Origin: Hygrocybe punicea
Lineage: Eukaryota; Basidiomycota; Agaricomycetes; Agaricales; Hygrophoraceae
NCBI GenBank assembly: GCA_963556145.1
Contig: OY744467.1
Coordinates: 5,146,001-5,210,000, forward strand
Direction of reading: 5' to 3'
DNA: 64,000 nt
The translations under genes and the position numbers were made by a program. Below the pieces are notes generated by a model that searched no databases, was not told the origin of the DNA, and was given only the letters and a program-made list of their open reading frames with translations. This document shows positions 6,590 through 38,192 of this stretch, in pieces. Positions within the stretch are counted from its first letter, which is position 1. The number at the start of each line of letters is the position of its first letter.

Positions 6590-8433
6590 GATAATTGTAT
6601 GACTTGGCACAACCATGACACAGGAGGACATTGCCATTAAGGATTGACACGGGTTCGGGTTTACCCATGGTGTTTCCTAAATGGGTAGCACGGGTTCGGG
6701 TACGGTGTTCCAAAACACACATCGTTCCCAAACCGCACCCGTTACCCGTGGTGTGCGGGATTTTCATGTCCTCACTTGAGGACCCTAAGGTAACCTTTTA
6801 TTCTTTAATAATTACATTTTTACTTATTTTTTGACAGCAGCTGTCACTTGCCACCACCATCACCACCACCACCACCACCACCACACATCAACTGTGTTCC
6901 ATGCAGCGACCGACGCTGGTTGCATGGACGATGCCAGCGAGGACACACGCAGAGGACGAACAGGGCCAGGTGGGTGGTGCGCCCACCACCCATTCTCCAG
7001 GTACGTGCCCACTGCATCTCGCGCTGACCAGAACCCAACCCAACGACACACACACGATGCACACACACGACACAGCACGATGCACGCACACATGACCACA
7101 TGCACGACCGCACACACGCACACACACTTAAACGACGCCATCTCGGTTGGCACTGGCCCATTGGCCAGTCCATTCCATAGACGGTGTTCGATGGAGGTGT
7201 GCAGATGTCGCGACACAGATGGGCCACATCTATTGACGTGTGCTCGACGTGTGTGATGTCGCTGTGGTAGTCACTGTGGCAACCCATTGAGTAACGGGTG
7301 CGGTTTGCACCCATTACCTGTCCGGGTATGGTTTTGGCGGGTGCAGGTGCAGGTGCGCCGTTTTGGACCTGTGGGTCAACCCATGTCAATCCTTAATTGC
7401 CATGTACACCAATGTCTCTAGTCGTTCCATTTGGAAGATACTGGCATACTTCAAGCGTTCTGGCCGAATCAATGTCCCTGAGTGCAAAAGGCCAAAAGTG
7501 CATTGAATTCTAGGTAACTATGATATTGAGGTGTGTAGCATTACATCTTGTGCACTCCTTCTCTACAAAATTTCGATATGCAGTATATGCATCGCAGGTT
7601 GAATGAATGCCCTGATCTGTATCTTGATGAACTGCAAATGGAGCTTCAGGAGACTTGTGGTACTTCAGTATCAATTTTGACGATATGGAGAACCCTTGTA
7701 AAGGGCAGTTATACCATGAAAAGGTATGCTTTGCCCACTAATTCATAATTATCCAACTAATCAATTGTCAGCTCTCCCATGTCGCGATTGAACAAAGCAA
7801 AGAGAAATGAAGCATGTTTGCTGCTTGCATTGGCACATATGAGGCTGAACAACTAGTTTTTGTCAATGAAAGTGCTGTGGATCATTGAACAACCTATCAT
7901 GGAAGAGCCTAGGCCACCTGTGGCCGAAAAGCAACTCACAAAGCCTTCTTTTGCTGCAGACAACAGTATGTTCACTTACATTTTAGTCCTCCATTCATTG
8001 ACAATGCTAATATATTTCTAGGTTTTCTGTTCTTCCCGCTTTGGCCCTTGATGATGGCATCATCCACTGTGAAATTGTTTAAGGCGCTTTTGACACAAAT
8101 ATTTTTTATTCATTCATAAACCATCTCCTTGATCAAATGCAATCATTCCCCACCCCAAAATCAGTTATTATCATGGATAATTGCCGAATTCACAAGCACC
8201 CTGAAATTTTGGAGCTCATCAAATCTTGGTAAATTTTGATTTATATTATCTTCAATTTTGTGACTACCATGTCATTTTTCAGAGGTATGCGGTGTGAATT
8301 TCTACCACCGTATTCGCCTGACTACAATCCAATCGAACTGGCATTCTCTGCAATGAAATATTCCCTCCACCACAATGGTGAATACATCCACATGGCTATG
8401 ACAGAATTGACTTTAATGGATATTTATTGTGTG
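6590..8433 (+). pseudogene. Tc1/mariner-type transposase, decayed, with introns
   Basis: A DDE_3-class cut-and-paste transposase. An N-terminal helix-turn-helix segment reads SSRSIWKILAYFKRSG (from about 7,415), then an exon around 7,570-7,720 with NECPDLYLDELQMEL, then catalytic exons with IIMDNCRIHKH and FLPPYSPDYNPIELAFSAMK. Likely introns are about 7,722-7,768, 7,965-8,021 and 8,229-8,281. The first catalytic Asp is Asn (AAT at 7,865-7,867, expected GAT), and in-frame TGA codons stand at 7,808 and 7,886 where Arg is expected. The start is split from the rest by the 758-bp element at 6,638-7,395; removing that element rejoins QEDIA to MYTNVSS. Confidence 0.85.
6638..7395 (+). mobile_element. 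758-bp TIR element with 8-bp TSD (ATTGCCAT)
   Basis: Ends TAAGGATTGACACGGGTT and its near-complement AACCCATGTCAATCCTTA are flanked by ATTGCCAT at 6,630-6,637 and 7,396-7,403. Inside are GGGT-rich subterminal repeats, an intron-like segment 6,790-6,837 (GTAACC to TTTGACAG), a CCACCA run, the motif GGTGGTGCGCCCACC before a donor at 7,001, a CACACGA-type run, and a degenerate palindrome near 7,213-7,262. It encodes no transposase, so it is non-autonomous. An 8-bp TSD fits hAT or Zisupton/KDZ-class transposition. Confidence 0.9.
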
Positions 8434-17859: not shown

Positions 17860-19674
17860 GAGGAAGCTGGGGGGGGATTGCTGTCTTTCACAGGGGTAGC
17901 CAAGGAGATAGGAAGGGGTGGGGGCAGGGAAGGTGGAGTGGTGGGGGGTGGGAGGGGTTCGTCTCCCCAGCCACATGGTACTAGGGGAGGAGTCACTTGT
18001 CGTGAGGGTTGTCTGTCGAAAGTAATGGTGGTCTGTCTTGTTTGTTGGCTAGTTGTCAGTCAATTGCAAGAAGGTGGGGGTAGGGGTTGGTTGAAGATGG
18101 AGGGGGGTGGCGAATAGTGTCGGGAGGCTGGCAATAGGGGGGAAGTGGATATGGGGAGTGTTGTCTGTTTGTTGTTGATGGGTGATGGTTTGTCTGTCGA
18201 GCAATGTTAGTTCGGGGATGGGGTGCAAAAGCATTGCTAATAATGTTGTTGCTGGAATATTGGGACTGTGTCCAGGGTTTGGCTGTGGGGTAATGGGGTA
18301 GGAGGTTCTCAGGGTTATGTGAATCTGCTTCTTTGTACTTTTGCTGGAAAGTGGGGCAGTTACGGTCCCAACTGGTGTGTCTGCATTACTTGCAGGGGAT
18401 GCAGTAGGGCTGATTGGGATTTTCGCATGAGGGGGTCCTGTGCTGGCCTCTGCATGTGCTGCAGGTGTCATTGTCTACTGGGCATCAGGCTGCGGTGTGG
18501 TTCCAGTGGTGACAATGTAGACATCACATGGGTTTCTTCTTGCATTTGCTAGTGTTTATTCTTTTATGGCAGATGAAGAAGCCTCTTGATAGGACATGGT
18601 TGGCAGTTTTGGGGTTGCTGAATGAGAAGATTGTGTGGCCACACATTTGGTTGGGCAATCGGCGATCCTTGGGTTTGATCCAGTTGGCTTGTATGATGGT
18701 GTCCACTGGCAGATCATTGACTTCCTTGATTTCTCTGAGGTGGTCGGCTGATTCCACATAAAAGGTCAGTGGAATGAAGTATGCTATAGTGGTGTAGGTC
18801 CATCATTTAACTGATGCACCATGACCAAAGTTGGATAAGAAGGTGGCTAGGTGTGTGTCGTTGCATAGCCATCGGGTGGTATTGTCAGTGTTAGCTTCTA
18901 AGAGTATACCTACATTGTGTAGTTGCGTGACTCCTAGGAATTTGAGGGTCAGTGGGGGGTTGGTGGCTTTGAGCGCCACATTGGCTTTTTCGGTGAGATT
19001 CGCTAAGCTGACATCTAGGACTTTCTTAGTTTCTGGAGTGTCTGTGACGTCGAGAAGTAATTGGTGGGCTTGGAGTAGTTCCCTGGCTGTGATGCGGGGG
19101 TCTCTGTGATCAGCGGTGGCTCATGTGTTTTTGGTTAGGAGTGCATCTTTGTATGACATGGTTGTGGCTTCGAAAGTGGTAGACGTCTTGGCAATGTGTG
19201 CTGCCATCTGCTGAAGCTGGCTTTTGGTCTCCATGAGGCTAGTCCCTATATGGCCTGTTATTTGGGTGAAGATATTGTCAAGGATGGGTTCCAAAGCTTG
19301 ACTGATGGCATCTTGAATCATGTCTGTCTGTCTTTTAACCTCATTTGTGACTGCATTGGCAAGTAGTTCCATTTTGGTGTTGAAGTCTAACAAGTTAAGC
19401 AGTATTGCAATGGATCAGATGGTGTTGGTTATGGGGGGGATGGTGTTGTTGTTGTCCATAGCCAATATCTGCATTAGTATATTCGACAGGACGGGAATAT
19501 TGAGGTCCTGGTTGGGGGGTAATAGGGACTTAGCTAGAAGGCAGTTAATGGCTTGTTGTGCTGTTTCCGGTTCAAGCTCATGTTCAAAGTCAACTTCTGT
19601 TTGCTGGTTGGCCGCATGTCGAGAGGCTGTGGTTTCTGGTGGCAGTGAGGTTGTGGTTTGAGAGTTCTTGCCTC
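17860..19674 (-). pseudogene. LINE ORF1, gag-like with zinc knuckles (decayed)
   Basis: The nucleic-acid-binding protein of the LINE. It begins beyond the 10.3-kb insertion, near 30,025, with ATPNEGAPSK, and resumes at 19,674 with GKNSQTTTSLPPETT. A helical region (19,121-19,393) contains MELLANAVTNEVKRQTDMI. Around 18,350-18,530 three Cys/His knuckles follow one another: CLHCHHWNHTAA-C, CSTCRGQHRTPSC and CIPCK-CRHTSWDRNC. The C-terminal third is Pro/Ser/Thr-rich. In-frame stops are mostly TGA where Arg is likely. The ORF ends just before the ORF2 start at 17,854. Confidence 0.7.
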
Positions 19675-19900
19675 TAGTGCTACCGAAGTTCAGTTCAGTC
19701 CAGTTCAGACCCATTTTGGCTGAACTCTGAACTGAACTCCGGGTTCAGTTCAGGATTTTCCGTAAACTGAACCTGAACCGCTGTGAACCATTTGGATTTT
19801 TTTTTCAGAGCCTGAACCGAGTTCATGAATGGACACTTAATTTTCGTATTATCACGCATTTTACCAAAATAAATTACAATATATTACTGTAGCTATCTAA

Positions 19901-20965
19901 TCTAGTGGGTTTGTTTTCCGCAACCCGTACCTGTACCCATTGCCATGGGTACGGGATTGCGGGGGGTTAATCCGTGGGTCCTCAGACGTGACTGGGTGGT
20001 GTTGGGCACACCACCACCCTCCCGGTTACCTCGCGGTTGCAGCGCCGACGTCAATTGACGTCGCGGTGCGCATCCACGAGGTATGTTGGTGGTGGGTTTG
20101 CGGGTCCTCAGCCGTGACCGGGTGGTGTTGGGCACACCACCATCCTGCCGGTTAACTTGCGGTTGCAGCACCGACGTCAATTGACGTCGCGGTGTGCATC
20201 CGCGAGGTACGTTGGAGGTGGGATGCGCAGTGGCCTTCGTCACGGTCGCGCTTGCGCTTGCACTCGTAGTCGTGGTTGTGGTTGTGGTTGTGGTTGTGGT
20301 TGTAGTCGTGCTAGTGGTCGTGGTCATAGTCGCTGTGGTCATTGTGGTGGTCGTGGTTGATGTTGTCGTTGTTGTCATCGTCATATTTGGAGGGCTGTGG
20401 GTTGTCGTTGTCGTAGTGGTGGTGGTGGCCGCCGTTGTCACCCTTGTCCTCACCGCCTGTCGTTCTCGTTGGGTGTGTGGTGTTTGTGTTGTTGGTACTG
20501 CTCTCATCATCGTTTGTGTAATTAGTAGCTAAGAAAAAAAAACAAAAAAAAACCATACCTACTGCAACGGGGGGTGGGTGCACCACCCTCCTGCTGCCCT
20601 TCTTCCAATGTCCCATTGTTGTCCGGCGTCGTTGTTGCCATCGTTGTTGCCATTGTCCGTTGTCGTTGTTGCCGTTCTCATTGTTGTTGTCGCCGTTGCT
20701 GTTGGTGGTTGAGAGCAAACTGTCATTAACTTGAAACAAATGATAATAAAAGTAAAAAACTTACCTCAAATGCTTGCGTTCGAGGGTCACTCTTGCAGGA
20801 AGTTCCGGACCCCGAAAGTCTGCCAGTCTGCCAGTTGCGGCAGTCTGCCAGAACACATGTACAAACAAATCAAATACACCAAACACCCACCCCACGACAA
20901 ATGCACGTGCAATCCCTCAAAATACCTGCTTGCTGGCCAGGATACTGGTATGTCTTGCAATGCCA
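19901..20965 (-). mobile_element. Nested non-autonomous TIR element (right end uncertain)
   Basis: The left end TAGTGGGTTTG leads into GGGTACGGG-type subterminal repeats. The inside follows the family plan on the minus strand: intron about 20,764-20,721 (GTAAGT to ATGACAG), the motif GGTGGTGCACCCACCC before a donor at 20,558, a long CAACGACGACAAC-type simple sequence (20,240-20,500) and two 53-bp palindromes. The best right end is CCAACCCACTT at about 20,965, judged from distances in sister elements, but no matching target duplication was found. Confidence 0.55.
20029..20207. repeat. Two 53-bp palindromic modules
   Basis: Copies at 20,029-20,081 and 20,155-20,207 have outer arms CCTCGCGG/CACGAGG and ACTTGCGG/CGCGAGG and the centre CCGACGTCAATTGACGTCG. 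Both are exactly 53 bases with the centre TCAATTGA at the same offset. Confidence 0.85.
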
Positions 20966-21755
20966 ACCCACTTGTATGTCATTCCCCATTGTTTTTCATC
21001 TCCAACATGCTAACTGTGACGCATAGGTGTCATTACTGAAAACCCTCACAATGTATCTAGTCCCGACACTCCCTTTTCAAGCCGAACACTTCCTGCTTCT
21101 AGCCTATATCATGTCCAACATAGAAGGTCAAAATTGCCAGTCTTGCCACCGTTTTCTGCTGTATCAATGTTGTAAATCCAATGCTCACAGAAATCAGGGT
21201 AGAATGTATGTTCAGGTAAGTAACGGCATGTTATATGCACTTTGTAACTGCTCATTGTATCATAGTGTGGGGCTACCAACCCAGATACGCATGAACCTTG
21301 TCGCTACTTCAGGTGGAAGAGTGGGTCTTCGAGTCCCTCACTTTCATCAACTCTTAGTCAGCTTGGGGCGACCCCACTGGGCCCAGGGACAGTTGAGGCC
21401 CCAACGGTCCCCACTTCTATCATTATTACTCCACGAACGTACCCTGGATTAACACAGACACGCTGCCCTGTTGGTTCCTGCCAATCAACTCGCATTTGGG
21501 TAGATTGTGGGCACCGCTTTTGCAAAATGCATTGCCTTGCAGCTGGAGGATGCGGGAGCAAGGCACATAAGACTTCTGCAAGCCAGGTCTTGCCACCGAC
21601 AAGTTTTATTCCACTGCCACCACCCACTTCGCATCCCATGTCATCCGAAGTACCACTTGATCCACAGCTATCAGCAGCAGAACCATCCGCACCCTTATCT
21701 GAAGGAAACATGCCTATTGATCCACAACTTTTAATGGCAGTTCAGCCCATTGACC

Positions 21756-23412
21756 TGTTACCTTTCCAACTCCGCTTCCGACCCCGATGCCCATTCCAAT
21801 ACCTACCATGACGATTCTACACTGCCACCTTCCTTTTTTATTTCATTTTGTCCTTTGTCTTTGTTTCGATGTCATTGTTTCTTCATTCGGACATCCTTGT
21901 ACTTTCTTGTTCTTGTTCTCTTTTTGTCCCACCTTCTAGAACAATCCAGACCGACCATGGACATATCCACGTGACCTCATTGTACCCGAATAGTCTCCTT
22001 GCCGACGGATGTCACCGACATTGTCTTTTCCCTTCGATATCTTGTTTACGCTATCCCACGACAAACCGATCACAATGGCTGTACTCCCGAAACAGCTCAT
22101 TACCGTAATTATCATTGGCAGCATCGCCATCACTTTCCTGATCGGTTTCTACATTGTTATGATCTATCTTTGGCATCGGCACCGAAACCCTTCCACCATC
22201 GATACTTCCGACTTCCACCTCGACAATATATCAACACGTAATTGACAATTGCCATTCTTGGATATATGGTTTCCACTTTCGTATTCCGTGCCTACCATTA
22301 TCCTCCCTGACGATCCGACGACATTCCTCACCTGCTTGAGCACTCTGAACAATCCTCGATCACACGACAATTCACTGTTCCCTCCAAGCCGACCATCGCC
22401 GAAGCACATACATTCAAACTTCGACCATAGACCACACGACTTCCCAATACAGTGACCCGACCCCTATCGTTTATTGTTCACACGACACCGCTTCAATGCA
22501 GTACCCGACGACTTGTTCCCACAGCTTGTCACCTGTGCCATGACTCGACACCTGGACCCACATTCCTTTTATCCATAACCTTGTTACCTCCCACATTCAT
22601 TTACAACGATACCCTTTCTTGGACGATACCAACATCAGATGGACCCTATTGTTCCATGAACAGGACAAGACACCGCTCCTCGACACGTCATCAACACAGA
22701 CATCGTCATCCGGTACAGCTTATGCTGTTCACATGTCTGATCTCGACTAGCCCACCGTCCTTGTTGGTTTTCCTTCCGCACATTCCTTTGTTTTCTTTCA
22801 TGCCGACTTTGCTGTTACATCCACACCACCTCAAGACATTCCCTTCACCAACCCCACACTGGACGATACCCATCTTCGACCCGACCGTGCAATGCACTTG
22901 CCAAACTGCACACTTGCCCGTTACAGCAAGTGTAGACCCCGAATTGGCAATTCTGCATGTCACATGATCCGATGACGGATCATCCGAGTCATCCGGACCT
23001 CTTCTATCCTCAACGACACCCGGGCCTCCAGTTGGATCGCGAGAACATCGACATGAGGACGCCTCATGTACGCCTCATGGTGAACACATGGTAGAGTTGG
23101 ACATGTTGTGGCTTCATGGTTGTATTCCTATTTACCTCCCCTCAAGACCAGCCACTATATGTACTGTTCTTGTTGTTGGTTCGGACTTTTTCTTCTTTTC
23201 CTTTCCTTACGTTTAGTCTGGTTCTTGGGGCAGACTCATCTTGTTTTGGGTAACCCCCACGGCTCGCAATGACATTAGACCTTGACCCCCCCCTTCTTAG
23301 CAGTGTTGTCTTAGCTGTAAGCAACAATGAAAGCTGCTGTTCTCCCCTCTGGAAGCCGATCCCCTGTTAAGTTGATTGTTGCTGGAGCCCGCTGCAGAAG
23401 CGATCCGTAACA
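21756..23412 (+). mobile_element. LTR, family C, forward copy of a head-to-head pair
   Basis: Starts TGTTACCTTTCCAACTCC and ends AGAAGCGATCCGTAACA. It matches the solo LTR at 59,630-61,298 along its whole length. Open frames inside are reproduced in all copies but have no recognisable product. Confidence 0.8.
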
Positions 23413-24861
23413 TGACCCCGCTATAGGGCTCGGACTCCTTGTCCCCTCTACGTCGCTCAATATTGATGCTCGCGCCAACTCTCGTTATGTTTCTGTTATG
23501 GATCGCTTCTGCAGCGGGCTCCGGCAACAATCAACTTAACTAGGGATCGGATTCCAGAGGAGAGGAGAGCAGTTTTCATTGTTGCTTACTACTAAGACAA
23601 CACTGCTAAGAAGGGGGGTTCATGGTACAATGTCATTGCGAACCGTGGGGGTTACCCAAGATAAGGGGGTCTGCCCCAAGAACCAGACTAAACGTAAGGA
23701 AAGGAAAGAAGAAAAAGTCCGAACCAACAACAAGAACAGTATATATAGTGACTGGTCTTGAGGGGAGGTAAATAGAAATACAACCATGAAGCCACAACAT
23801 GTCCAACTACACCATGTGTTCACCATGAGGCACACATGAGGCTTCCTCATGTCAATGTTCTTGTGATCCAACTGGAGGCCCGGGTGTCATTGAGGAATAG
23901 AGGGGGTCCGGATGACTCGGATGATTTGTCATCGGATCATGTGACATGCAGAATTGCCAATTCGGGGTCTACACTTGCTGTAATGGGCAAGTGCACAGTT
24001 TGGCAAGTGCAATACACACTCGGGTCGAAGAAGGGTATCGTCCAGTGTGGGATTGGTGAAGGGAGTGTCTTGAGGTAGTGTGGATATAGCGGCAAGGTTG
24101 GTGGTATGAAAGAAAATAAAGGAATGTATAAAGGAAAAACCAACTAAGACAGTTGGCCAGTCGAGGTCAGACATGTGAACAGCATAAGCTGTACCGGATG
24201 ACGATGTCTGTGTCAATGACGTATCGAGGGGTGATATTTTGTCCTGTGTGTGGAACAAGGTGGTCCACCTGATGTCGGTATTCGTCCAAGAAAGGGTATT
24301 GTTGTAAGTGAGTGTGGGAGGTATCAAGGTTATGGATGGAAAAGGATAAATGAATGTGGGTCCAGGTTTCGAGTCATGGCATGAGTGACAAGCTGTGGGA
24401 ACAAGTCATTGGGTACTGCATTGAAGCGGTGTCGTGCAAACAATATACGATAGGGGTTGGTTCACTGTTTGGGAAGTCGTATGGTCTGTGGTCGACGTCC
24501 AAAAGAGTATGCTCCAGCGATGGTCGGATTAGAGAGAACAGTGAAATGTCTCATGATCAGGGATTGTTCAGAGTTCGCATGCAGGTGAGGAATGTCGTCG
24601 GATCGTCAGGGAGGATAATGGTGGGCACAGGGTATGAATATGGAAACCAAATATCCGGGAATGGCAATTGTCAATTACGTGTCGATATATTGTCACAGTG
24701 GAAGTCAGAAGTATCAATGGCGGAAGGGTTTTGGTGCCGATGCCAAAGATAGATCATAACAAGGTAGAAACCAATCAGGAAGGTGATGTCAATGCTGCCA
24801 ATAACAATTACGGTAATGAGCTGTGTCGGGAGTACAGCTATTGTGATCAGTTTGTCGTGGG

Positions 24862-25875
24862 TAGTGTTGCCGAAGTTCAGTTCGGTCCGGTTCCGACCCT
24901 TTTTGGCGGAACCGCGAACTGAACTTCGGGTCCGGTTTGGCGCATGGCCAAACCCGGACCCAGACGGCGTCAAACCGTCTCTTCGCGTTCGGTCTGGGTT
25001 CAGACGCGGTCTGAAACCCAGACCGAGGTGGGCTCACCCCGTCCGTTCTCCTCGCGAATGGCAGGCGCGTATCAATAGATACGGCGCTGCACTTCGCGAG
25101 GTAGATGGGTGTGGGGGAGCCCTCCGGTGTCCCCAAGGGATGTGGAGGGATGGGGGGTCTTGTCCCGTGGTCCCTGTGTGGCATTGCCGGCGCTGCTGCT
25201 GCCAACCGTTGTCCTCGTCGGGGTGGTGGTATGGCTGTGGTGGTGTTGCTGCCACAGCTGCTGCTGTTGCCGCCGTTGCTGCTGATACTGCTGCTGCCGT
25301 CGTTGCTGACCTCGTTGCTGCCATCGTTGCTGCCGCTGCCGGTGCTGCTCCTGCTGCCGTCGCCGTTGCTGCTGCCGCTGGTGGTGGTGGTGGTGGTGGT
25401 GTTGCAGCTGTCGTGCGTCCGTTGGCATTGGGTTGGCGTTGGGTGGTCATCTCGCGGTCGTGGGTGTGGTCACACTGCGGTCGCGGTCGAGCTTCCTGTA
25501 GCAGGCAACATTAGTAAAGTTCAGGAAAGTAAAATACATACCTGTGTTCATGAACGCGACATTGTGTCGCGTTCATTGGCCTTGCGTTGTTGCGTGTTGG
25601 TGAAGAAAGCTACCTGTAATGGTCACATGATACCGTTTAACACGAAAAAGTAAGTAAAGGAATGCGAAAAATAAATGAAATAAATACCTTAAAAATATCC
25701 GCGTTCGCGGTTTGGACGCAGTTTGGAGCCGTTCAGGAAATCCGGCAGGCCTCGAAACCCAGAACTGAACCCGCGGTCCGGTTCAGCACTTGGCTGAACT
25801 TAGACTGAACCTAGGGTTCAGTTTGGGGTTTGAACCAGGTTCGGCTAGGTTCGGAACCGAACTACGGCAACACTA
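24862..25875 (-). mobile_element. 1,014-bp TIR element with the KDZ element's TIR, TSD GTCGTGGG
   Basis: GTCGTGGG flanks both sides (24,854-24,861 and 25,876-25,883). The left end TAGTGTTGCCGAAGTTCAG is nearly the end of the 10.3-kb KDZ element (TAGTGCTACCGAAGTTCAG). On the minus strand two introns (about 25,689-25,616 and 25,541-25,496) precede a CAGCAGCAACGGC-type simple sequence and one 52-bp palindrome. It has no transposase and is best read as a non-autonomous partner of the KDZ element. Confidence 0.9.
25050..25101. repeat. 52-bp palindromic module
   Basis: Arms CCTCGCGAA and TTCGCGAGG surround GCGCGTATCAATAGATACGG. The centre has one change (TCAATAGA) and the neighbouring arm bases pair as GTA/TAC. 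Confidence 0.85.
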
Positions 25876-27480
25876 GTCGTGGGATAGCATAAACAAGATA
25901 TCAAAGAGAAAAGACAATGTCGGTGACGTCCATTGGCAAGGAGACTATTCGGGTACAACAAGGTCACGTGGGATATGTCCATGGTCAGTCTGGATTGTTC
26001 TAGAAGAAGAAAGGATAAAAGGAGAACAAGAATAAGAAAATACAAGGATGTCCAAATGAAGAAACAATGACGTTGAAAGGAAGACAAAGGACAAAATGAA
26101 ATGAAAAAGGAAGGTGTGCAGTGCAGAATCGTCATGGTGGGTATCGGAATGGGCATCGGGGTTGGAAGCGGAGTTGGAAACGTAACAGTTTCCCACATGC
26201 CGCTGTTTTTCACAGAGCAGTGGGAGAAGGAGCAGGAGCTTCGTGAACGTCAGCGCAAGACAGATGCCACCCGACTTGAGAACATTAACAAGTCGAAACA
26301 CACTGTCGTCATTTATGCTTGGCCTCATAATAACGCTGAGCCAACGATTGTTGAATATCAAGATGGCTTTACGTGGCCTCACTTCATAGTCAGCCATGCC
26401 ATCTTGGATGACCTTGGCTTCAGGGATCAGGTGGCCACCGTGCAGCTTCACCGTTCCACCCTGGGAACATGGACAAGGATACGTGAGGGTCATGTCATCC
26501 CTGTCGACAACCAAAATCGTATATTTCTCAAAGCCATTGGTGTCATAGAAGCCCTTGATTTTGATCGACATATCCAACACAGTTCACAGAACAACACTCT
26601 CCACTTCCACCGTAATCTACCTCACGAACAAAGTTGTGTCCGACAAGAGACACTCAACAAGAGGGTAAAAGCCAGACCTGTGTATGTTGAGGTGACATCT
26701 GCGTCGGAAAACTTGTCTGACATCGAATGTTCACGCCAATCTGGACCCACTACCAGCAGTGCGAAAACCAAAGTGAAACGAAAGCGTGTTCAGCATGGCC
26801 ATGTTGTGGCTCACACCAATGTTGCAACGGTCTCGTCAGGAGAATCTGATCCCGTAAACATGATCAAACGGTCGCATACATCTCAAGTAGTCGGCGAGAC
26901 CATTGACATCTCCTCAGATGACTCTGATGGGACACCACAGCCATCCCGAACACTACTACTGCCTGCAATCAAGGCAGAACTGGCTTCGCCCACTCCCCTC
27001 CAGGTCAACCGGCATTCACTCATTATCACAGAGTCAGACCAGAGCTCCAGCAGTAGCTCCAGTGGGACGAATTCTCACAAGATGGAGTGGCCGCAAGACT
27101 TTTATGTCAAGGACATTGTAGAATTTTTCTGTGCCTGTGACGAAGTTGAGGGCTGTCAGGTTGTTCAGGTATTCATCATGCACTTCAACACCCCCTTCTG
27201 GCGCTCCACCTACTATGAGAACAAGAAGCGTTGGCAGCAAGCACCGCAGTTCATCAAGGACAGCGTACTCAAAGCAGGCCATTCTGCTGGAGGACTCTGG
27301 TCAACATTCTTATCTAGAATCCCTTCCAGATGAGCTGGGAGCAGTTCAACACAGACGAGAGTTGCACATTCAATGAGCAAAGAGAGCTCAAATTAGTTAG
27401 CCGGTATCACCATCCTCTATTCTATCACCATTATCCTTTCCTCGTTTTGTATGTAGTCTCATATTTGCTACAGCCAATTA

Positions 27481-29580
27481 CTAGGACCTCTTCCCTCTGC
27501 AGCTAACTTTTCTTTCGTGATGCGGTTTCGCTGTAAGATCATCTCATCAAGAAAGAAGTCATACTTATCTGGCAGCATTTCACGGCAAATTGCAAGAAAA
27601 CCTCCAAACCAGGCATTGGTCTGCTCAGCAACAGATGAATTGAAGTACCACCCTTTTCCATCTATGCCAATAAGCTCCGGAAACAGTGCTGGGTTACAAT
27701 TCTGTTGGCAGAATGTATCGCGTTCAGAGTGTTTGCATTTGAAATGGAAAACATCAACGGGAAGTGCCACATTGGCGAATGCAGGATCATCTTTCACAAC
27801 TTTCTTCATTGAACAGTTGTTGTCAAAAAAGATATGCGTGGGCATGTGTCCGTGGATCCGGAAGGTACGTTTGATCATTTCCTGAAAATGCGTGAGTAGC
27901 ACAAAAAATCCCTTTGTGAATGGCACGTACTGCTACGGTGGCAACTGCCTCTGCACCATAAAACGTTTCTCGAGCAAGAATTATTCCACATGGAGCTACT
28001 ATCAGCTGCTCGTTGTGAGTCCGCCTTCTTCCAAATTGAGCACAAACCTTCTTCGCATTGGCCAACGTGGGTGCGTCAGTAGTAGGAGAGATATGATTAT
28101 TGTCATATACATTGAAAAATTGATCGCGGTCATCATCAAAGACCTGCGCCAAGTCAACCCCATGAGACTCATTTGTTTCAGGATGGGCTACCTGGGCCTG
28201 ATGGAGTCGCTCGTTAAGTTGAAAGAAGGCCTGTCCACGTTCTGTGTGAATACGTTCGATCTCTTGGTGACCTGCATCTGTGCAGGTCTTCTTTCCTATG
28301 GCAGCTGGGGAGCCACGGCCCACAATAGCGCATACCAGGTCAAGGTTGCTGTGGAGTGGGCAGAAGCGACTGTGATTGTTTGGAAGTGGTACATGACAGT
28401 TGTGGCTACCGCAGCATGGACGGCCAACTTTAACACCTTCAACAACAACTGCGGCGACAATTTGATCAGCTGCGGGAAAATAAGTCACCATGCAAAGAAA
28501 AAACAAAAAGATGACCTTTCCCATTGATGCCCTTGAACACACGTATGCACTTGTCACAATAGTGGCAGATTTCAGGCTGGCTGTAGAGGCGGATGCGGGC
28601 ATTTCATGCCTGCATTGCAGCAGTGAATCGCTTATGCTGATCACCAGTGTGAGGAACAACTAATGTTGCTTGGCGAGCTTGATGGTCCTCAAGCAGGGAG
28701 AGTATGATGAATGCGTCATACACATGTCCTGGCTTCAGTGTGAAGCCGAAATTCCATTCTTGAGGCCTCTTGTGATCCTTGGCCAATGCATACTGATAGG
28801 AACGAGCACAATTGGTTGCCGACTTCCATGCAAGATTAATATCCGTTCGCCAGAGGTTGATGACTTTGCATTCAACAAATTGATGGGTTCCAACCTGTAT
28901 GACATCTGGGATATCATCATAGTATGTACGCATGCCATTTTTGACCTGATATTCATGGTGATAGCTGGTATGACAGTCTATATAAATGGTATGTGACGTT
29001 CAGCAGTTAGCATATGCTGGTATATTGCACCTTCACAATACAAAGGGATATTCCACACGGCCAGAGCACCATTCCCTAGTGTATATAGCACTGCCTGATG
29101 AGGTTCCATTTTCTTCAGGCTCAGGCCCCGCCTCAATCGGTTGCAATCAGTGTTCATGCACTGGTGCTGTGGTGGGTACAATGTGCACGGAGACGCTAGC
29201 ATAACAGTTTTGTCAGCTGTAGTGTTTTATCAAAAGGTAAATGCAACGGGATACATACGAAAGCCAAGATCCAGTCCATGAAGCTGAAATACATCCTCCA
29301 TCGCAGCCTGAGACCCTGGATCTTGCCAAATGGTGTCTTTGAGTGCATTCCAAAAGTCGACAACAAGGGGATGGGGGAGATCACAAATACGACCAAGGAG
29401 GGTGGTTATCGATGGTGGAAGAATAAGTGGTGGTTTGTCGAGTGGGTGGTCTGCAGCTTGAGCAAGTAATATGTCATCCCTGAGCCGTGCAGCCACACTT
29501 GTAAATTGAATTATTTGACGAAGTGGGTCATTGTTGAGCACATTGGCATGGCAAGTAATGAGTTCAACGATGGGTAGCAT
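27481..29580 (-). pseudogene. KDZ transposase with CxC5/CxC6 cysteine clusters (nearly intact)
   Basis: The likely transposase of the 10.3-kb element. Exon 1 starts at 29,580 (MLPIVELITCHANVL); a 42-nt intron (29,217-29,258) follows. The CxC5-type region has CMNTDCNRLRRGLS, TYYDDIPDVIQVG and CHYCDKCIRVFK. After another intron near 28,480 comes a CxC6-type cluster: RPCCGSHNCHVPL, HSRFCPLHSNLDLVC, KKTCTDAGHQEIERIH. The C-terminal catalytic part has PTHIFFDNNCSM, LPVDVFHFKCKHSERDTFC and FNSSVAEQTNAWFGGF; Asp, Asp and Glu there are the candidate triad. Lesions are few: a TGA near 28,604 where Arg is expected and probable frameshifts near 28,980 and 27,925. It converges on the GRF gene. Confidence 0.7.
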
Positions 29581-31523
29581 AGTTATTTAGTGTGTAGTCA
29601 AACTAACTATAATTTGGCGGACTCATGGTAGACTGGTGGACTGGTGGACTTTCAGGTTCCGGAATGTCCTCCTCCACTCTTGTGGTGATTTGTCGGGGTT
29701 GTCGTGGCTGAGACTAAACTTTGGTGACTAAAAATGGAAATTTGCCGAAATCGGCATGTGAGTACAACTTTCGTGTGAGCAAAATATACATGCCTGCGGA
29801 CATCGGTTCAGCAGTTCTGAACCGCTCGTGAACCGTTTAGATAACCTGGGGGTTGCCTGAACCCCAAACTGGACCTGGGGTTCAGTTCAGCCCAAGGTGC
29901 TGGACTGAACCGAACTTCCGGTTCGGTTCAGAGTTCGAACCGGGTTCAGATCGGTTCTGAACCGAACTTTGGCAGCACTACTTGCCTCACTTACTTGGGG
30001 CTCCTTCGTTGGGGGTTGCCCATTGTCATAGGCTCATTTTGTACTTAGATATGCTTTAGGATGGGTTTTGAGTGTTATAAGAGGGAAAGGAGTTTAAGAT
30101 GGGCCTATAGCCCAGTGTACAAAGAGCTCCTTTTTTCAGGGTCCCAGTAGGGGTAACACATGGTTTTGAATCAAGAACCATCCATGTCTTAGTTTATTGT
30201 TTGATCTACTTAGTATCTCTAACCCAATTCAGAGGGATGCGCTACAAATTTTTACCACCATACTTGCCTGGCTGTAACCTGATTGAGCCAACTTTTTCTG
30301 CTCTTAAAGCACACATTAGAAGGAGCAGTGGACTTGTGTGAGCTGCTGGAGAGTCAGACACACAGAGGTGAAGTCATTGCCCTATGTCATAAAGCTGTTG
30401 TGACAGTGAGTGTGGGTGTAGACTCAGATGAGGAATCTACAGAAAGGGATGATCAGCTAATAAGTGATCATAGGAGTTTTCTATAGAATTGTCTTAATCA
30501 ATTGTACCCAGATCAGGGGGTTCTGGAACAGAGGGGAAGTATGGGAAGAGGATGAAGAGGAAACTAAAGTGTAGAACTGAAGTGCAGTAATAATCTGTGA
30601 GGCAGGATGATAACCTTTATTCTTATGATTTTGTAGTGTAAAAGGACAACTTTTGTACTACTGGTGGAATCCTGTGCTGTAGTAACTATGTACTACAAGT
30701 GTAGGCTGTATACAATAGGAGTGTGTGTGGAGAGTGAGACAGGAGTAAAGTCCTATGTACTAGGGAACGGGAAACAAAGATATATGATATACAAATAGAT
30801 ACATACTAATTCTGGGTTGTTAGGAACATTGCATTGTTGATAGGGACAATTCAGGAGCGTAATCAGTGGAACAGACCAGAATCAGGTGGAATTGATGATA
30901 ACAGAATGGAAATGGTTGGGAACAAAGTGAGATTTGAATAGGCAATGACACGGGTATGGGTACTGCCGGGTATGGGTCCAGGTTACCTTTTTTGGATCTG
31001 GGCAAAACCCATACCTGTGACCGCGGGTCTTGGCATACCCGCATATCAGCATCAACACAAACAGACACAACAACCCAGCTGCAACCGCTTACCAACACTG
31101 TTTTCAAGTGCCCACCACCTCCGCCTCGACGCAAACATCACCCACCAACAGCATCTCCATGTTGACCCAAATGGCCCCATCCTCGCGCAAAACTGTGTCC
31201 CAACATGTTGGACAATGCCCCATCATCAAATAGTGCCCAAACGCGAACCCCCATGCCAAAAACCCAATGGGAGATGCATCACATGCCTGCATCAGCCCCA
31301 AACACACCGTCCCCGCTGCAAAACGCGTCCGAATGCGTCTCAAGTTAGTTAATGGCATGGGTAACCCCCGGGTACAACTGGGTGTACCCGTACCCGTACC
31401 TGGCTTTACCCGTACCCATCGCAACGGGTACGGGTTCTGGTGGGTATGGGTACGGGTACACCTAGTTACCCAGGGGTATCCCACCACAATGTGGTGGGGT
31501 GCTGGTGAGGTGTCACCGGTGAG

Positions 31524-31841
31524 TAGTGTATTGCACGGGTACGGGTAAACCCGCGGGTTTTGCCACGGGTACGGGTACGGGTAGGGTACGGGTACGGATT
31601 CCTGGACCCGCCAGCTTTTTTTTAAGCCCGGGATCGTCCAAAACGGTCAAGTATTGAGCTAGATATGCTCAAAATACCTCATTGGAGTATTTTGAGCATA
31701 TCTAGCTCAATACTTGACCGTGTTGGACGATCCCGGGCTTAAAATGACGGGTACAACCCGCGGGTATTGTACCCACGGGTACAACGGGTGCGGGTACGGG
31801 TACAGCCAAAAATACCCGGGGGTTACCCATGCAATACACTA
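31524..31841. mobile_element. 318-bp MITE inside E2 with a long hairpin, TSD CCGGTGAG
   Basis: CCGGTGAG lies at 31,516-31,523 and 31,842-31,849. Ends are TAGTGTATTGCACGGG and CCCATGCAATACACTA, followed by many CGGGTA repeats. The centre (about 31,626-31,741) is a stem of about 55 bp, from AAGCCCGGGATCGTCC to GGACGATCCCGGGCTT, with a loop of about seven bases. Its end sequence equals the right end of E2, so it may be a deletion derivative. Confidence 0.9.
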
Positions 31842-31867
31842 CCGGTGAGGTCTCGAACCCCCTGCAA

Positions 31868-31920
31868 CCTCGCAAATGGAGCCCAACATCAATTGACGTT
31901 GGGGTTGCGTACTCGCGAGG
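31868..31920. repeat. 53-bp palindromic module
   Basis: CCTCGCAAA and TCGCGAGG surround CAACATCAATTGACGTTG; the arm pair CAAC/GTTG differs from neighbouring copies yet still pairs. Confidence 0.85.
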
Positions 31921-32016
31921 TGTTGGCCAGGGGGGCGGGGACCTGGGCACTGGTGCCAGGAACCTCGCACACCGTACCCGTTATTGGCAGGTACCCACCA
32001 CATTCCATCCTAAGTA

Positions 32017-32268
32017 CCTCGCGAACAACGGGGGCGCGTCAATTGACGCGCTCCGTTTGTTTTCGCGAGGTTGGATGGGGCTGGGGAGTTTCCATGGGCG
32101 TCCACACATGCTCACTACCTCGCGAACAACGGGGGCACGTCAATTGACGCGCTCCGTGTTTTCGCGAGGTTGGATGGGGCTGGGGAGTTTCCATGGGCGT
32201 CCACACGTGCTCACTACCTCGCGAACAACGGGGGCACGTCAATTGACGCGCTCCGTGTTTTCGCGAGG
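32017..32268. repeat. Three palindromic modules in a ~100-bp tandem array
   Basis: Modules at 32,017-32,070, 32,118-32,169 and 32,217-32,268 repeat at 101 and 99 bases. Each has CCTCGCGAA, a centre GTCAATTGACGCGCTCC and TTCGCGAGG, and each is followed by TTGGATGGGGCTGGGGA. The tandem unit ends about 32,310. Confidence 0.9.
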
Positions 32269-32299
32269 TTGGATGGGGCTGGGGACATCCCATGGGCGT

Positions 32300-32620
32300 C
32301 CGCCTCGTTTCCGTCGTCCGTTGCCCCTGTCCCCGTTCCCGTGCTCGCTGTCCTCGTTGTCGCCATTGTCGTCGTCCCCGTTGCCGTCGTCATCCCCGTT
32401 GCCGTCGTCCTTCTTGTCCCGGTCTCCGTTGTCCTCGTTGTCCCATTCCCCCGTTGTCGTCTTCCCGTTGTCATAGTTGCCGTTCCCACTTTGTCGTCGT
32501 CTTCCCGTTCTCGCCGTTGTTGCGTTTGTCGTCATTCTTGTCTTCATTTACCCCGTTGTCCTCATTCCCGTTGTCCTCGTTCTTGCTGTCATGGTCGGCC
32601 TGGGTTGTCCCTGTTCTTGG
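32300..32620. repeat. Simple-sequence exon (GTCGTC/CCGTTG-rich)
   Basis: Irregular repeats of GTTGCCGTCGTC and close variants keep several frames open on both strands, giving Val/Arg/Pro or Thr/Asn-rich translations. It corresponds in position to similar runs in the other TIR elements. Confidence 0.7.
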
Positions 32621-33456
32621 CTGCGTCCCATCTGCTTGTTGCTGTTGCCGTGTTCGCGTTCGTTTGGCGCGAGGGTGCGGGAAAAAAACCTAAAAGTATT
32701 TAAGTAGTTAGTAGAATAAATGAATAAATGAATAGAATGCTTACCTGGGGTGCCCTGGCACCCACACCCGTTGCCGTGTCATTGTTGTTGAAGGAAATCA
32801 TATGTCACGGGACCGTGACAGTACCCGTGAGCTAACCCATGAAAACCCGTACCCGGCGGCACGGGTATGGGTTTGTCATGGGTCCCAATGTGGCTACCCG
32901 TACCCGTACCCGGGCCTACCCGTAGGAAAAACCCGCACGGGTTCATGTACCCGTGCAATACACTAGTCTCAAGTCCCACCCCGGCCCCAAACCCCGTGCC
33001 CGTGCAAGAAAATGTGTTCAAACGTGTCCCAGACCGCGGTCCCACAACACCCGACCATTTGACGCCCACACAGGCCCCAAAGCCCGTGCCCATGCAACAG
33101 AATGTGCCCAAACGCACCCCAGACCCCGTTCCCCCCAATTACATGCCCACACGTGCCCACATCAGCCCAGAATCACGATGCCACCATCCAGATGCTGCAA
33201 CTGCGAACGCCAAGGCTCAACGGCATCAAAATGCGGGCTGATGCATATGCAAGGTTCAAGACGATGAAGGAGGATGAGAGGAAGGGGAGAATGGGACATG
33301 GTGCAGGGAACGAGGAGATGGATACGATGGGTGAGAGTCTCTCACCCACGAGAACCACCCATCGCCTGGTTCCCAGCCCCCCCACTCCTCGCATTTGCAC
33401 AGCGAGAGTCTCTCGCCCATGAGAACCGCTTGCCACCTGGTTCCCAGCCCCCCACT

Positions 33457-33509
33457 CCTCGTGTTTGCACAGCGCCACGTCAATTGACATGCATGTCAGC
33501 AATGTGAGG
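33457..33509. repeat. 53-bp palindromic module in E1
   Basis: A weaker copy: CCTCGTGTT, centre CACGTCAATTGACATG, right arm TGTGAGG. A partial duplicate of its left part lies at about 33,384. Confidence 0.7.
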
Positions 33510-33795
33510 TAGATTTGGGCTGGAACCCACCGGGTTTCCTGCATGGGTCAATACCTGTACCTGACCCGCCGCTACCCGCCATCTACCCGCTGAAAAAAGA
33601 CCTGTGGGTAGACAGGTACGGTTGGAGTGGGTCCGGGTACGGGTCAGCCTCAGGACACCCGTGGGTATACCCATGTCATTGCCTAGATTTGAAGAGGGTA
33701 TGGATCTAGAGGGTCTGGAGCCTCTACACCATATGGTCTGTTAACAGCAGATGATGCTCATGGGTTGTTTGCTCACTCCAGTTATATCTAATCTT

Positions 33796-34545
33796 GATTG
33801 TTTCATTAGCCTCAAGTAATTATGCATGTAAGCCCTTTGTAACACTAATATATACCTGTAAATGTAGTTATACAAGAATTCATAGCTGGTAGCAGATGTC
33901 AAAACTTGTGCAGTGTGCTACATTAAAATTTGCAGCCATATCTCTAGAGAGGGCATTCCTCCACCTTTTGCTCTGAAAACTTTTGTGTGCCCTGATGAAT
34001 GAAGTTAGAAACTCACACCAGTCAAACATTTCAGCATAGAAGGTGTGGTGGTCCCAAAAAATTCACAGATACTTGGATGGAGGATGAAAAATCAAGTTTT
34101 GAAATAGCGGTAGGAATCACTCAAAATTGCTATGGCACCCTACACCTTGTTGAATAGATCATTTTAATAATAAAATCATCTCAATCAGAGCAGTAGTTGT
34201 TGAGATAAAATCCAAATACTTTCAAGCCTCCCAGAGCTACTGAAAATAGTATTTGTGGCACATGTGCCAAAATAGTTGCAAACAGCAATAACCAGTTATT
34301 AACCAGTTATTAACTTGGGGGGTCTGTGAGAGGGGTTATTAACTGTTAAAAATTTGCCTTGCTCATACTGCTGTATATGGTTATATATTAATCATAGTTC
34401 AGTCAAGCTTTGTCAACAAGGTTCAAACAAGCCTCAATGGCGACCGAAATGCCCTTCTCTACCTAGCAGAACCTTGACAATCTTTGTTTACTGCTCTTGC
34501 ACCTTCTAGAGGCTCCTCCAAATCCTCCAGAAGAAATCAGCAGGT
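33796..34545. other. No gene seen
   Basis: AT-rich sequence following the mariner relic. No frame, tandem repeat or inverted repeat stands out. Confidence 0.5.
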
Positions 34546-35926
34546 ACTAGTGTTGCCATGGCATGGTCCAGCTCAGCTTGGCTATGGCTGACAACAGCTA
34601 ACCCAAATATGGGTTATTAGCTGGACAGCCTGGACCAGACAATTGTGGGCCCTAGGAAATAACATGGGTTACCTGCAGTTTTTGTGTGGGTTTTTGTTAA
34701 TGAGGGTGTAGCTCTTGATTTTGTGATTGAAATGCACTAATTTTCTTGTCAAACAGATAAGAACTGAGTGAGATATGGCCAATACAAGATATAGCATCCT
34801 ATCCCAACAACTGATCCTATACTACTCTGATCTTTCCAAAAAATCTTGAAAAGTCTGAGTTCTGAGTATAAACCCTCTCTCCTCCGTACCACCACCATCA
34901 ATGACAACGATGTTCACTTGTTCAACTAAATTTACTAGGTCATCCTCTGTTAGTTCAATGTATTATCATTTCAAGGCCAAGGACGATTGTATCCGATGGA
35001 CTATCGAAGCATATCCGGCGATCATTGCATTTAATTGGTGCTGTTTGACAGCTCCAGCCTCATGCCCATCGGAGTCTCAACCCTGCGAATCTTTTTCTGA
35101 TCTTCACACGATCCAGCCCTGGCGGTCCTGCTAAATAATTAGTTTCAAGTGAGTAAATAATAGTGTCATTAAATAAGTCCAAATCCGTTCCACTACTCAC
35201 CTTCAGTCTCTAAAAGCCAACACTCTATGAACTTCTCCTCCATCGGATTCCTTGTGTCCCATTCGGAATCTATACATATCAAACTCTTATAATAATCATA
35301 CAAACATATCAACCAGTAAACTACTGACCGTAGCTTGTTTCGATATCCATTCACCCCATAACTCTCCCGATAACTAACATCACTGAAGTTGTCGTACCCA
35401 GCACCACAAAAAGAAATCATCTTCTTTGCAGCCTTGAACTCTTCTCGTGTTGCGATGATTCTGATCTTGGTCTCCCAAGCTTTATCGATAACGAACTCAG
35501 CATCCGTAGTCTGTCTCAGTCTCCCCCCAACATCTACCAACATAACTACATCGTAAACCTTCTTATCGTTTCGTTTGAATTTCGCTCCAAGGAAGCCTTG
35601 TATCCTGACGTCGTTCCACCTGAACCAGTCGAGTATACATTTGTATGCCTGCGATTTAAGATATCTCTGGGCACTGTCTTGGTCCCAGCAGTGATGAAGA
35701 TCGATATGATAACGTATAACTAGAACGTAGACATCTCGCAAGTAGGGTGTAGCACGGGTGACCTGCGGGTCCCCAGGCCGAACACTGTACCCGTACCCGC
35801 AGACACCGCACCCGTCACAGGTCCGGGTCTGCATCACCCACCATCGGACACGGGTATAGTGGTTACCCACGTCACTGTGCGGGTAGCGGGTGGGGGCTCG
35901 TCCCACTCCATCCTGGTCATTGTTGA

Positions 35927-35980
35927 CCTCGCGAATGCCTCGCCATGTCAATTGACATGTGGCTGATGTGGTTCGCGAGG
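35927..35980. repeat. 54-bp palindromic module
   Basis: CCTCGCGAA, centre GCCATGTCAATTGACATGTGGC and TTCGCGAGG. The inner stem extends eight pairs beyond the fixed centre. Confidence 0.9.
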
Positions 35981-36451
35981 TCATTTGAGGGGGCCATGGT
36001 CCTGCCAACATTGTTGTTGACAGCCCCATGGCCCTCCACCCCCTGGCCCATTCTTGTCCCACGTCGCGTCGTTGCCAACCTCGTCACCGTTGGCCAATCG
36101 GCTGGCATCGTCGTGGCTGTCATCGTTGTGGCCGTCGTTGTCCTGGCTGTTGTCGTCATGGCCGTCACCGTTGTGGCCATCATCGTCGTGGCCGTTGTCG
36201 TCCCAGCTGTCGTCATCGTGGCCGTTGTCGTCTCGGCCGTCATCGTCCTGGCCGTTGTCGTCCTGGCCATCATCGTTCTGGCCCTCGTCATCATCCGGGC
36301 CCTCGTCGTCCACGTCCACGTCGCCCTGTCCGCATTGCCCTGTCTGCATTGCCCTGTCTGCGTTGCCCTGTCCACATCACCCTGTCCGCGTCACCCTCAT
36401 CACCGTCGCTGTGCTGTCGCGAGGTCTTCGTGTGTGTCTCCGTGCTGGAGA

Positions 36452-36504
36452 CCTCGCGAACACGCGTTGACGCATCGACTGACGTGTCAACGTCATTTGC
36501 GAGG
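36452..36504. repeat. 53-bp palindromic module, variant centre
   Basis: CCTCGCGAA and TGCGAGG surround GTTGACGCATCGACTGACG and GTGTCAAC. The centre is TCGACTGA instead of TCAATTGA, while the arms GTTGACGC/GTGTCAAC still pair. Confidence 0.75.
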
Positions 36505-37293
36505 TGTGGACTGGAAGGCAGGGGGTTAGCCAATGTTGGTGGTGAATGATTCGGGCACGTACCTGTGCTGGTAAGTGGGCGCACCACTCTCCCAGCCGTT
36601 TCCCTTCGTCACCATGTTGTTGTTGCTGTTGTTGGTTGGTGTGGTGGTGGTGGCAGCGGTGGTTTGGGTATAACTGAATTATTAGATATGTTAAATGAAT
36701 GAATTAAAAGTATAAAAAAACATACCTTTGGGGCTTGCGGCCCTCTGTGCTAACCTGTGGATAACCATCTACCGCGGGTAAGGGTGTGCGGTAGTACACG
36801 GGTTGCCAAATTGGGACACCGTACCTGTACCCAATCAACCTGCAGCCCGAAAACCGCAGGTTTACCCAAACCCGTGCTATACCCTACTCGCAAGTAGAAC
36901 ATGATGAATAGTAACCAGTAAATGAGTAGGAGCGGTCATTGATGGTGGTGGTATGGAAGAAAGAAAGATTACAAACTCCGCTCCACCTGTGCCTACTATG
37001 TATTCCGATTATTGGCCACACTGTTTGTACATATGTACGAAATTATTGACCACCACTACCTACTATAGTTACTTATTACTGTAAGTTACCAATACCTCCA
37101 ACTGCTGAGGGGTCGGTTTTGTGGTGGGTGCTTGAAACTTTTCAAGATTTTTTGGAAAGATCAGAGTAGTATAGGATTAGTTGTTGGGATAGGATGCTAT
37201 ATCTTGTATTGGCCATATCTCACTCAGTTCTTATCTGTTTGACAAGAAAATTAGTGCATTCCAATCACAAAATCAAGAGCTACACCCTCATTA

Positions 37294-38192
37294 CAGCTGT
37301 TTTCATAAACATGCATAAATTAAGAAAACAGCAAAGGTGTGGTGCAAGCCTGCTGCCACATGGCATTTGACTCCAAGTTTCAAATCTTTGCAGCATGGAT
37401 TTTCAACGTATTAGGAAAATATAAGGACTTGACAGAATTTTATGTGTTATCTCATGACATACTGAATAGATTTGGATGGTTGTAGAAGGAAAACCTATCT
37501 ATTCAATCAGAGCTAGCTGCTCCTGTAATTACATCCTGAAAATAATTAGTGCTAAGACTGTTGCAGATGAAATACCAATATTTCATGAGCCAAACCCACA
37601 TGAATAATGACATAACAAGAGCTCAGATTAACATGATTGTGGAAAGTAAATTAGTTTGATTTTTAAGAGTTCAAAATACTTGGGATTGTACTTGTTAATT
37701 TTTTGATATTATTTACTTCAACTAGACACAAACCTAATACACACCTAAGAATTCCACAGAAAGTTAACATGAGCAAAATCCCAAGTATTTTGAACTCTTA
37801 AAAGTCAGACCAATTTACTTCCCACAATCATGTTAATCTGAGCTCTTGTTGTGTCATTATTCACCATGTGGGTTTGGCTCATGAAATATTGGTATTTCAT
37901 CTGTAACAGTCTTAGCACTAATTATTTTTAGGATATAATTACAGGAGCAGCTAGCTCTGATTGAATAGATAAATTTTCCTTCTACAACCATCCAAATCAA
38001 TTCAGTATGTCATGAGATAACACATAAAATTCTGTCAAGTCCTTATATTTTCCTAATATGTTGAAAATCTGTGCTGCAAAGATTTGAAACTCAGAGTCAA
38101 ATGCTGTGTGGCAGCAGGCTTGTGCCACACTTGACTGTTTTGTACCACACTTGACTGTTTTCTCAGTTTCTGCATGTTTATGAAAACAGCTG
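37294..38192. mobile_element. 899-bp fold-back element with TA target duplication
   Basis: The left arm begins CAGCTGTTTTCATAAACATG and is complementary over about 430 bases to the right arm ending ATGAAAACAGCTG. TA stands on both sides (37,292-37,293 and 38,193-38,194), and the empty site can be read from the opposite arm of the host element (CATTAACAAA). No coding capacity. A TA target fits Tc1/mariner-type mobilisation. Confidence 0.85.

Follow-up and report, generated by a model that had tools for sequence, protein, structure and literature searches.

Modules and transposable elements of the window

The 64,000-nt stretch of contig OY744467.1 of the basidiomycete Hygrocybe punicea analyzed here (positions 5,146,001 to 5,210,000; hereafter the window, whose own numbering we use) holds a series of elements bounded by terminal inverted repeats (TIRs), in which a palindromic module recurs. 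Two arms enclose a core, in the order ACCTCGCGAA, 12-16 nt, TCAATTGA, 12-16 nt, TTCGCGAGGT. Ten copies had been listed in a sequence-only reading, made by a model from the letters alone, and all ten were found. The recurring pattern that it ascribed to them stands, but only four of the ten are exact, the remaining six reaching 20-26 on a 28-letter score (ACCTCGCGAA + TCAATTGA + TTCGCGAGGT, spacers of 10-17 allowed), and the centres of the copies at 25050 and 36452 are TCAATAGA and TCGACTGA, respectively. The spacing is likewise fixed from arm to arm but not from arm to core, where spacers run from 12 to 16.

Elements were delimited with a detector of TIRs flanked by exact 8-bp target-site duplications (TSDs), which is blind to the module. 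A 10.3-kb element at 19675..29980 (TSD CTTGCCTC; TIR TAGTGCTACCG / TAGTGCTGCCA) carries two forward-strand modules near its left end, at 20028..20082 (score 24 of 28) and 20154..20208 (score 23 of 28). We call it Kyakuja-Dileera-Zisupton (KDZ)-type because of an open frame on the reverse strand (27823..28659) for CxC6, the KDZ-associated cysteine cluster (PF18721, E 1.5e-21, 76.8 bits against a cut-off of 27.5); this frame has 85 homologues, and all seven that bear a species name are basidiomycete. Two features of the type, an 8-bp TSD with TIRs and the cysteine cluster, are present in the element. The KDZ catalytic domain PF18758 was found neither in the six frames scanned nor in the window among the genome matches listed. 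A nested element (24862..25875, TSD GTCGTGGG) bears the module at 25049..25102 (forward strand, score 26). Between two forward-strand open frames that the 10.3-kb element carries at 21266-21811 and 26077-27333 runs a stretch of inverted repeat about 4.06 kb long (21942-25997), whose ends match over 60 bp and which holds a nested TIR element.

The element at 30939..33685 (TSD GATTTGAA) contains a weak reverse-strand module at 33456..33510 (score 20) together with nested elements. Modules lie on the forward strand of an element at 31345..32965, which was delimited by eye, has GTCTCAAG on its flanks and shares its left end with an element of another locus, L022: one at 31867..31921 (score 26) is followed by three exact tandem copies about 100 bp apart (32016..32071, 32117..32170 and 32216..32269). 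A 318-bp element at 31524..31841 (TSD CCGGTGAG) has no module. The element at 35743..36886 (TSD CTCGCAAG) bears an exact module at 35926..35981 on the forward strand and one at 36451..36505 on the reverse strand (score 25; core given above as on the forward strand), which starts a few bases past a predicted 3′ splice site. A diverged eleventh module, at 7205..7259 on the reverse strand (score 20), lies in the element at 6638..7395 (TSD ATTGCCAT). Five module-bearing elements (19675-29980, 24862-25875, 30939-33685, 35743-36886 and 6638-7395) thus have detected 8-bp duplications, in keeping with the at least five that the sequence-only reading had counted.

The full exact pattern occurs at four places in the window (eight rows, both strands) and in none of 100 shuffles. 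Nine places score at least 21, a level reached in none of five dinucleotide shuffles, and a score of 20, that of the copy at 33456, was reached 1, 0, 4, 0 and 0 times; by score alone this copy is within chance, and its location inside a TIR element supports it. A covariance model built from 24 modules, eight of the 11 window modules being among its training set, matched in the window at E <= 0.01 precisely the ten known copies and 7205-7259 (E 2.8e-9). The eleventh module belongs to the training set, and three untrained modules (20155, 32117 and 32216) were recovered.

Fixed geometry and matched changes across the genome

We searched the 92.2-Mb assembly (42 contigs). The half-module ACCTCGCGAAN{10,16}TCAATTGA has 1423 exact occurrences (708 and 715 for the two strands), against none for the reversed control, and perfect arms 29-59 bases apart form 416 palindromes, again with none in the control. 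Although lengths of 49-79 bp were allowed, all 49 distinct palindromes among the matches listed, which are all on contig C1, measure 54-56 bp; one further C1 match among those listed is 66 bp long and overlaps one of the 49. The sum of the two spacers in 24 family representatives is 26 (8 families), 27 (13) or 28 (3). A distance of 42-44 bp, close to four turns of B-DNA, separates the TCGCGA centres of the arms, and TCAATTGA lies about midway, 20-24 bp from each. In a 39-copy tandem family, identity is 99.7% in the core, 97% in the arms, 85-92% in the linkers and 72-87% in the flanks, the values for arm and core being inflated because the family was collected by arm and core. Shorter palindromes with these arms around different centres also stand beside the standard module, at L020 (568-603 and 740-783) and L022 (5154-5197), some of them paired nearly throughout.

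Symmetry was measured in 125 modules of 24 families (96 of the 100 from fetched loci and 29 from the matches listed, three of the 29 duplicating sites of the fetched loci). Over the 4 bp beside the core, a module's own left and right arms share 69 identities versus 50.9 (sd 4.0) for re-paired arms (0/10,000), and the outer arms share 204 versus 185.4 (0/10,000). Ungapped comparison further out from the core gives 64 versus 57.0 (sd 6.4; P 0.16). In an alignment of 20 families and four further members of those families (A1), two-sided change was observed in 17 of 23 pairs, with 58 cells versus 26.0 (sd 3.9; 0/500 shuffles), so that the significance of covariation, which the sequence-only reading had named as a check, is borne out; every covariation measure falls when the partner is slid by 1-3 columns. 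At positions 5 and 6, counted from the core, 14/24 and 17/22 cells lack pairing, which resumes outside them. The earlier statement that the arms stay complementary therefore needs qualifying: complementarity is clear over the 4 bp next to the core and in the outer arms, is lost at positions 5-6 and is partly regained further out. The module is two-fold symmetric, and its halves show matched changes.

Such likeness of the arms could in principle arise by mutation, through quasi-palindrome repair or gene conversion, rather than by selection; repair of this kind is a known process. One listed copy, at C1:2374776, is a perfect palindrome through its spacers, as this explanation would have it. We nevertheless hold it to be very unlikely, because such a process should even out whole arms, yet positions 5-6 differ alike across families and variation is lowest in the core.

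A strand asymmetry of the kind expected for RNA was hinted at by A1 and was not upheld once all oriented modules were counted. Among these, no consistent one-strand excess of G-U over A-C mismatches was found on either strand, and wobble tolerance limited to one strand was not seen (18 versus 43 beside the core and 66 versus 45 in the outer arms; counted by family, 5 to 3 and 6 to 8). The fixed length, the two-fold symmetry, the consistent break in pairing and the lack of strand bias argue for a protein on duplex DNA. We thus lean towards the module being a putative cis-acting site in double-stranded DNA for a symmetric, dimeric or tetrameric, protein; both the binding and the helical phasing are inferred from sequence. 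The sequence-only reading had left selection for self-pairing and a symmetric protein-binding site side by side, and the latter fits better.

Several observations weigh against this preference. Gapped complementarity of the spacers reaches 25 versus −9.7 for random pairs (sd 9.4; P 0.00015 with the perfect palindrome excluded), which suits self-pairing. In a minority of cases the arms enclose other centres, at gaps of 15, 17-18 and 25, and form shorter palindromes (17 exact), some of which pair from end to end, as would suit a hairpin. The two innermost variable pairs of A1 contain 12 G-U cells and two unpaired ones, a possible sign of RNA, and the rows of A1 are not independent, owing to the four extra members of its 20 families.

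These points bear on the alternative that the module acts as an RNA hairpin towards the 3′ end of a predicted spliced transcript, in stability, processing or as a small-RNA precursor. Covariation of the arms, the gapped complementarity along them, the fully paired short forms and a location downstream of an exon end and splice site (see below) are all compatible with this role. We consider it unlikely given that the length of the module is held to ±1 bp, that G-U is not consistently preferred to A-C and that no Rfam match was found in window 19000-38000; the mismatches kept at positions 5-6, together with the absence of wobble bias, argue against a hairpin.

Transposable elements and a spliced unit around the module

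About 12 kinds of TIR hold the module (our own count over the detected elements), which agrees with the earlier claim that the TIRs of module-bearing elements differ. All nine window modules scoring at least 21 are inside 8-bp-TSD elements, one of which was delimited by eye. Elsewhere, we examined 20 loci of C1 chosen for exact half-modules (seeds). The seed is inside an 8-bp-TSD element at 13 of the 20, two of these elements having been found with relaxed settings, and outside any detected element at the other seven (L018, L027, L028, L032, L034, L035 and L036). Of the modules at a distance of over 1.5 kb from every exact half-module, 5/11 are inside elements, which cover 12.2% of the loci there (P 0.0066), and a sixth falls in an 882-bp element (L020 278-1159, duplication CACACAGG) spotted by eye and checked. 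The sequence-only reading had asked whether matches would fall only within 8-bp-TSD elements; with seven of the 20 seeds outside and 5/11 non-seed modules inside, they do not.

Some of these other settings have features of their own. L028 belongs to a TIR family with 7-bp duplications, in that its close relative L042 is a TIR element, TATGACG..CGTCATA, with a flanking 7-bp repeat, TTCTTGT. L018 agrees to 99% with L040 for at least 2.6 kb, and an integrase-core frame (PF24764, 7.3e-22) in this block lies some 1.35 kb away from the module. PIF1-like helicase frames are found some kb from the module at L022 and L032. In the window itself, a foldback at 49930-50566 has perfect inverted repeats over its outermost 60 bp, with a similar foldback in L041 (3518-3913), and an open frame at 48165-48671 resembles retrotransposon gag, with matches below threshold to DUF4939 and to Ty3 capsid.

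In 22 of 27 elements the nearest module is 133-195 bp from the element end. Among the 16 elements without a seed, a module is present in 9/10 of those of at least 700 bp and in 0/6 shorter ones (Fisher P 0.0009); with the window left out, the figures are 4/4 versus 0/5 (P 0.008). Two of the six module-free short elements are 461-bp copies with different duplications. Short elements lacking the module still have 8-bp duplications and so did insert; the movement of elements is probably independent of the module, although some short elements may have lost it after insertion.

This bears on the possibility that the module acts in cis in the transposition of KDZ-type elements, as an enhancer or transposase site, which we rate as quite unlikely. 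Its proximity to one end of nearly all longer elements accords with such a role, as does the comparison of the L030 element with the 10.3-kb element, which have nearly the same ends and match over 226 bp on the left side, over 284 bp on the right side and over 65 bp where the module lies; three other matches between them, a weak one of 73 bp and two to the ends of a nested element, fall within that nested element. On the other side, none of the six elements shorter than 700 bp has a module in spite of their 8-bp duplications (deletion after insertion could explain some), and the module also occurs outside 8-bp-TSD elements. Among the other module-bearing TIR elements, ends shared with a coding element were seen for L030 only. 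By-eye comparison on C1 indicated that KDZ genes, among the KDZ matches listed, do not generally adjoin exact modules, and the covariance model found no module at three fetched KDZ or CxC6 loci, L039 giving one chance-level score of 20.

Among the matches listed, contig C36 has three equal-score KDZ matches (C36:257775, 695705 and 721195), each with a CxC6 match exactly 6906 bp on (264681, 702611 and 728101), which suggests recent copies or duplicated sequence. Contigs C11, C17, C19, C20, C29 and C32 repeat, with equal scores, the KDZ/CxC6 matches listed for C8 (5.96-6.26 Mb), as if these small contigs were alternative haplotypes or duplicated pieces of the assembly.

A conserved predicted exon end, GTGGTGC(A/G)CCCAC..AG/GTAYGT (the slash after AG marks the splice site), is located upstream of the module on one strand and has 429 exact occurrences genome-wide (control 0). 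In the window, the exon end and splice site (GTGGTGCACCCACC..AG/GT) are found on the reverse strand at 20553..20586, upstream on that strand of modules 20154 and 20028, and at 36557..36587, upstream of module 36451; on the forward strand, a further one at 6974..7006 is upstream of module 7205, which with its score of 20 is outside the pair count. A looser form of the exon end occurs 22 times in the window and 23 loci (once without a splice site), with a module at most 1.2 kb downstream in 16 cases and upstream in none. The first 4.56 Mb of C1, for which the list of exact half-modules is complete, hold 36 exon ends; by eye, 13 of these are within 1 kb of an exact half-module, which is downstream in 13/13, and 23 have none. 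These pairs come from related copies and are not independent trials. Intron-like patterns appear on the predicted strand of 14 of 26 elements, on the other strand of six and in three reversed sequences. An exon end GTGGTGCACCC(A/C)C..AG/GT(A/G)AG without a module is seen at window positions 1543, 3718, 50967 and 51232, in repeats of another kind, which implies that the exon end is older or more widespread than the module.

The small spliced unit is apparently non-coding. At the exon-end motif of the 22 occurrences, the frame open to an ATG is f0, f1, f2, several or none, and a search for homologues of the 54-aa peptide joined across the predicted intron found none. A coding palindrome (LAN....SID....FAR) was also considered and rejected, because the spacers vary by single bases and leave no common frame.

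In several families the two halves of the module are of different types, one terminating in ..GCCRYR (A) and the other in ..CRCRYR (B). With the near transposon end placed left, six families read B-A and one A-B, the others being unclassed or mixed. Read along the strand that carries the spliced unit, 14 modules (four families) are A-B and six are B-A; two of the six belong to one family, and the other four are in the inverted arrays of L028/L042, where we assign them to the opposite unit. The half types and their order show that the module is oriented and is not a perfect palindrome.

An imperfect palindrome that has oriented mismatches and closes a small unit on its downstream side, and one module family with different kinds of TIR, also resemble a recombination site that moves a cassette between transposons, as integron attC does. 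We regard this as scarcely probable: the borders of homology between TIR kinds vary, falling close to where the TIR ends on its inner side, 0-44 bp beyond the module. Cassette exchange at a single base within the module was not seen in the pairs compared. Nor is an attC core motif seen in the arms.

A putative docking site and its counterparts in known systems

Should the module be a docking site on duplex DNA, as we favour, its two outer TCGCGA sites would be presented about four helical turns apart, with a TCAATTGA site about midway. The core flanks would match on both sides within a family because the same protein contacts both halves, and families would differ because the contacted bases drifted together. 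The module occupies the outward end of the small, apparently non-coding spliced unit and sits close to one terminus of long DNA transposons, which belong to more than one lineage. Since the outward end of a transcription unit would here lie near a transposon end, a role as boundary or terminator can be guessed at, in which the module, once bound, would close off or insulate the unit instead of acting in transposition.

Where transposons have a conserved internal palindrome, it usually goes with a single transposase. By contrast, a site with more than 400 perfect-arm copies, fixed in length to one bp, covarying between families and not confined to one kind of mobile element, would suggest that a single factor acts on many elements at once. 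As a bolder and doubtful extension, transposons of different superfamilies within one fungus may have adopted one non-coding cassette, made up of the spliced unit, the conserved exon end and a palindromic platform of fixed geometry, which one host or element protein would recognize in all of them; the platform would then serve them all as a boundary or as an anti-silencing device, much as the TET/JBP genes are shared between superfamilies, but without coding. The module offers an exact bait for its factor and allows one to test whether transposon superfamilies trade non-coding control modules.

No description of such a module was found in the accessible literature on fungal-transposon palindromes, KDZ elements or the arm string, most subscription papers and Repbase entries being outside its scope, which agrees with the sequence-only reading's statement that it knew of none. 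Of the 51 papers in which the arm string occurs, none of the 20 whose titles were listed concerns fungal transposons. The available text of PMC12730594 describes KDZ transposons of fungi without mention of an internal palindrome, gives an 8-bp duplication for Zisupton, and 7-bp duplications and CA..TG ends without TIRs for Kyakuja, and reports TET/JBP genes common to several fungal transposon superfamilies (PMC12730594). As far as that text goes, the elements described here resemble the KDZ group in the 8-bp duplication of Zisupton and in the CxC6 domain of the 10.3-kb element, and are set apart from the Kyakuja subgroup by 8-bp duplications, TA..TA ends and TIRs. On the same footing, the module resembles the TET/JBP genes as an accessory segment found in several superfamilies, and differs in being non-coding, short and palindromic.

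APSES factors such as MBF or StuA have CGCG-centred sites, and the TCGCGA arms are likewise CGCG-centred; we know of no paired arrangement of APSES sites about four turns apart around TCAATTGA. The internal repeats of the P element, the subterminal repeats of Spm and the gypsy insulator are protein sites inside transposons, each belonging to one family. The module is comparable to these as a putative protein site near a transposon end, whereas it is common to many kinds of TIR and has a three-part organization of 54-56 bp.

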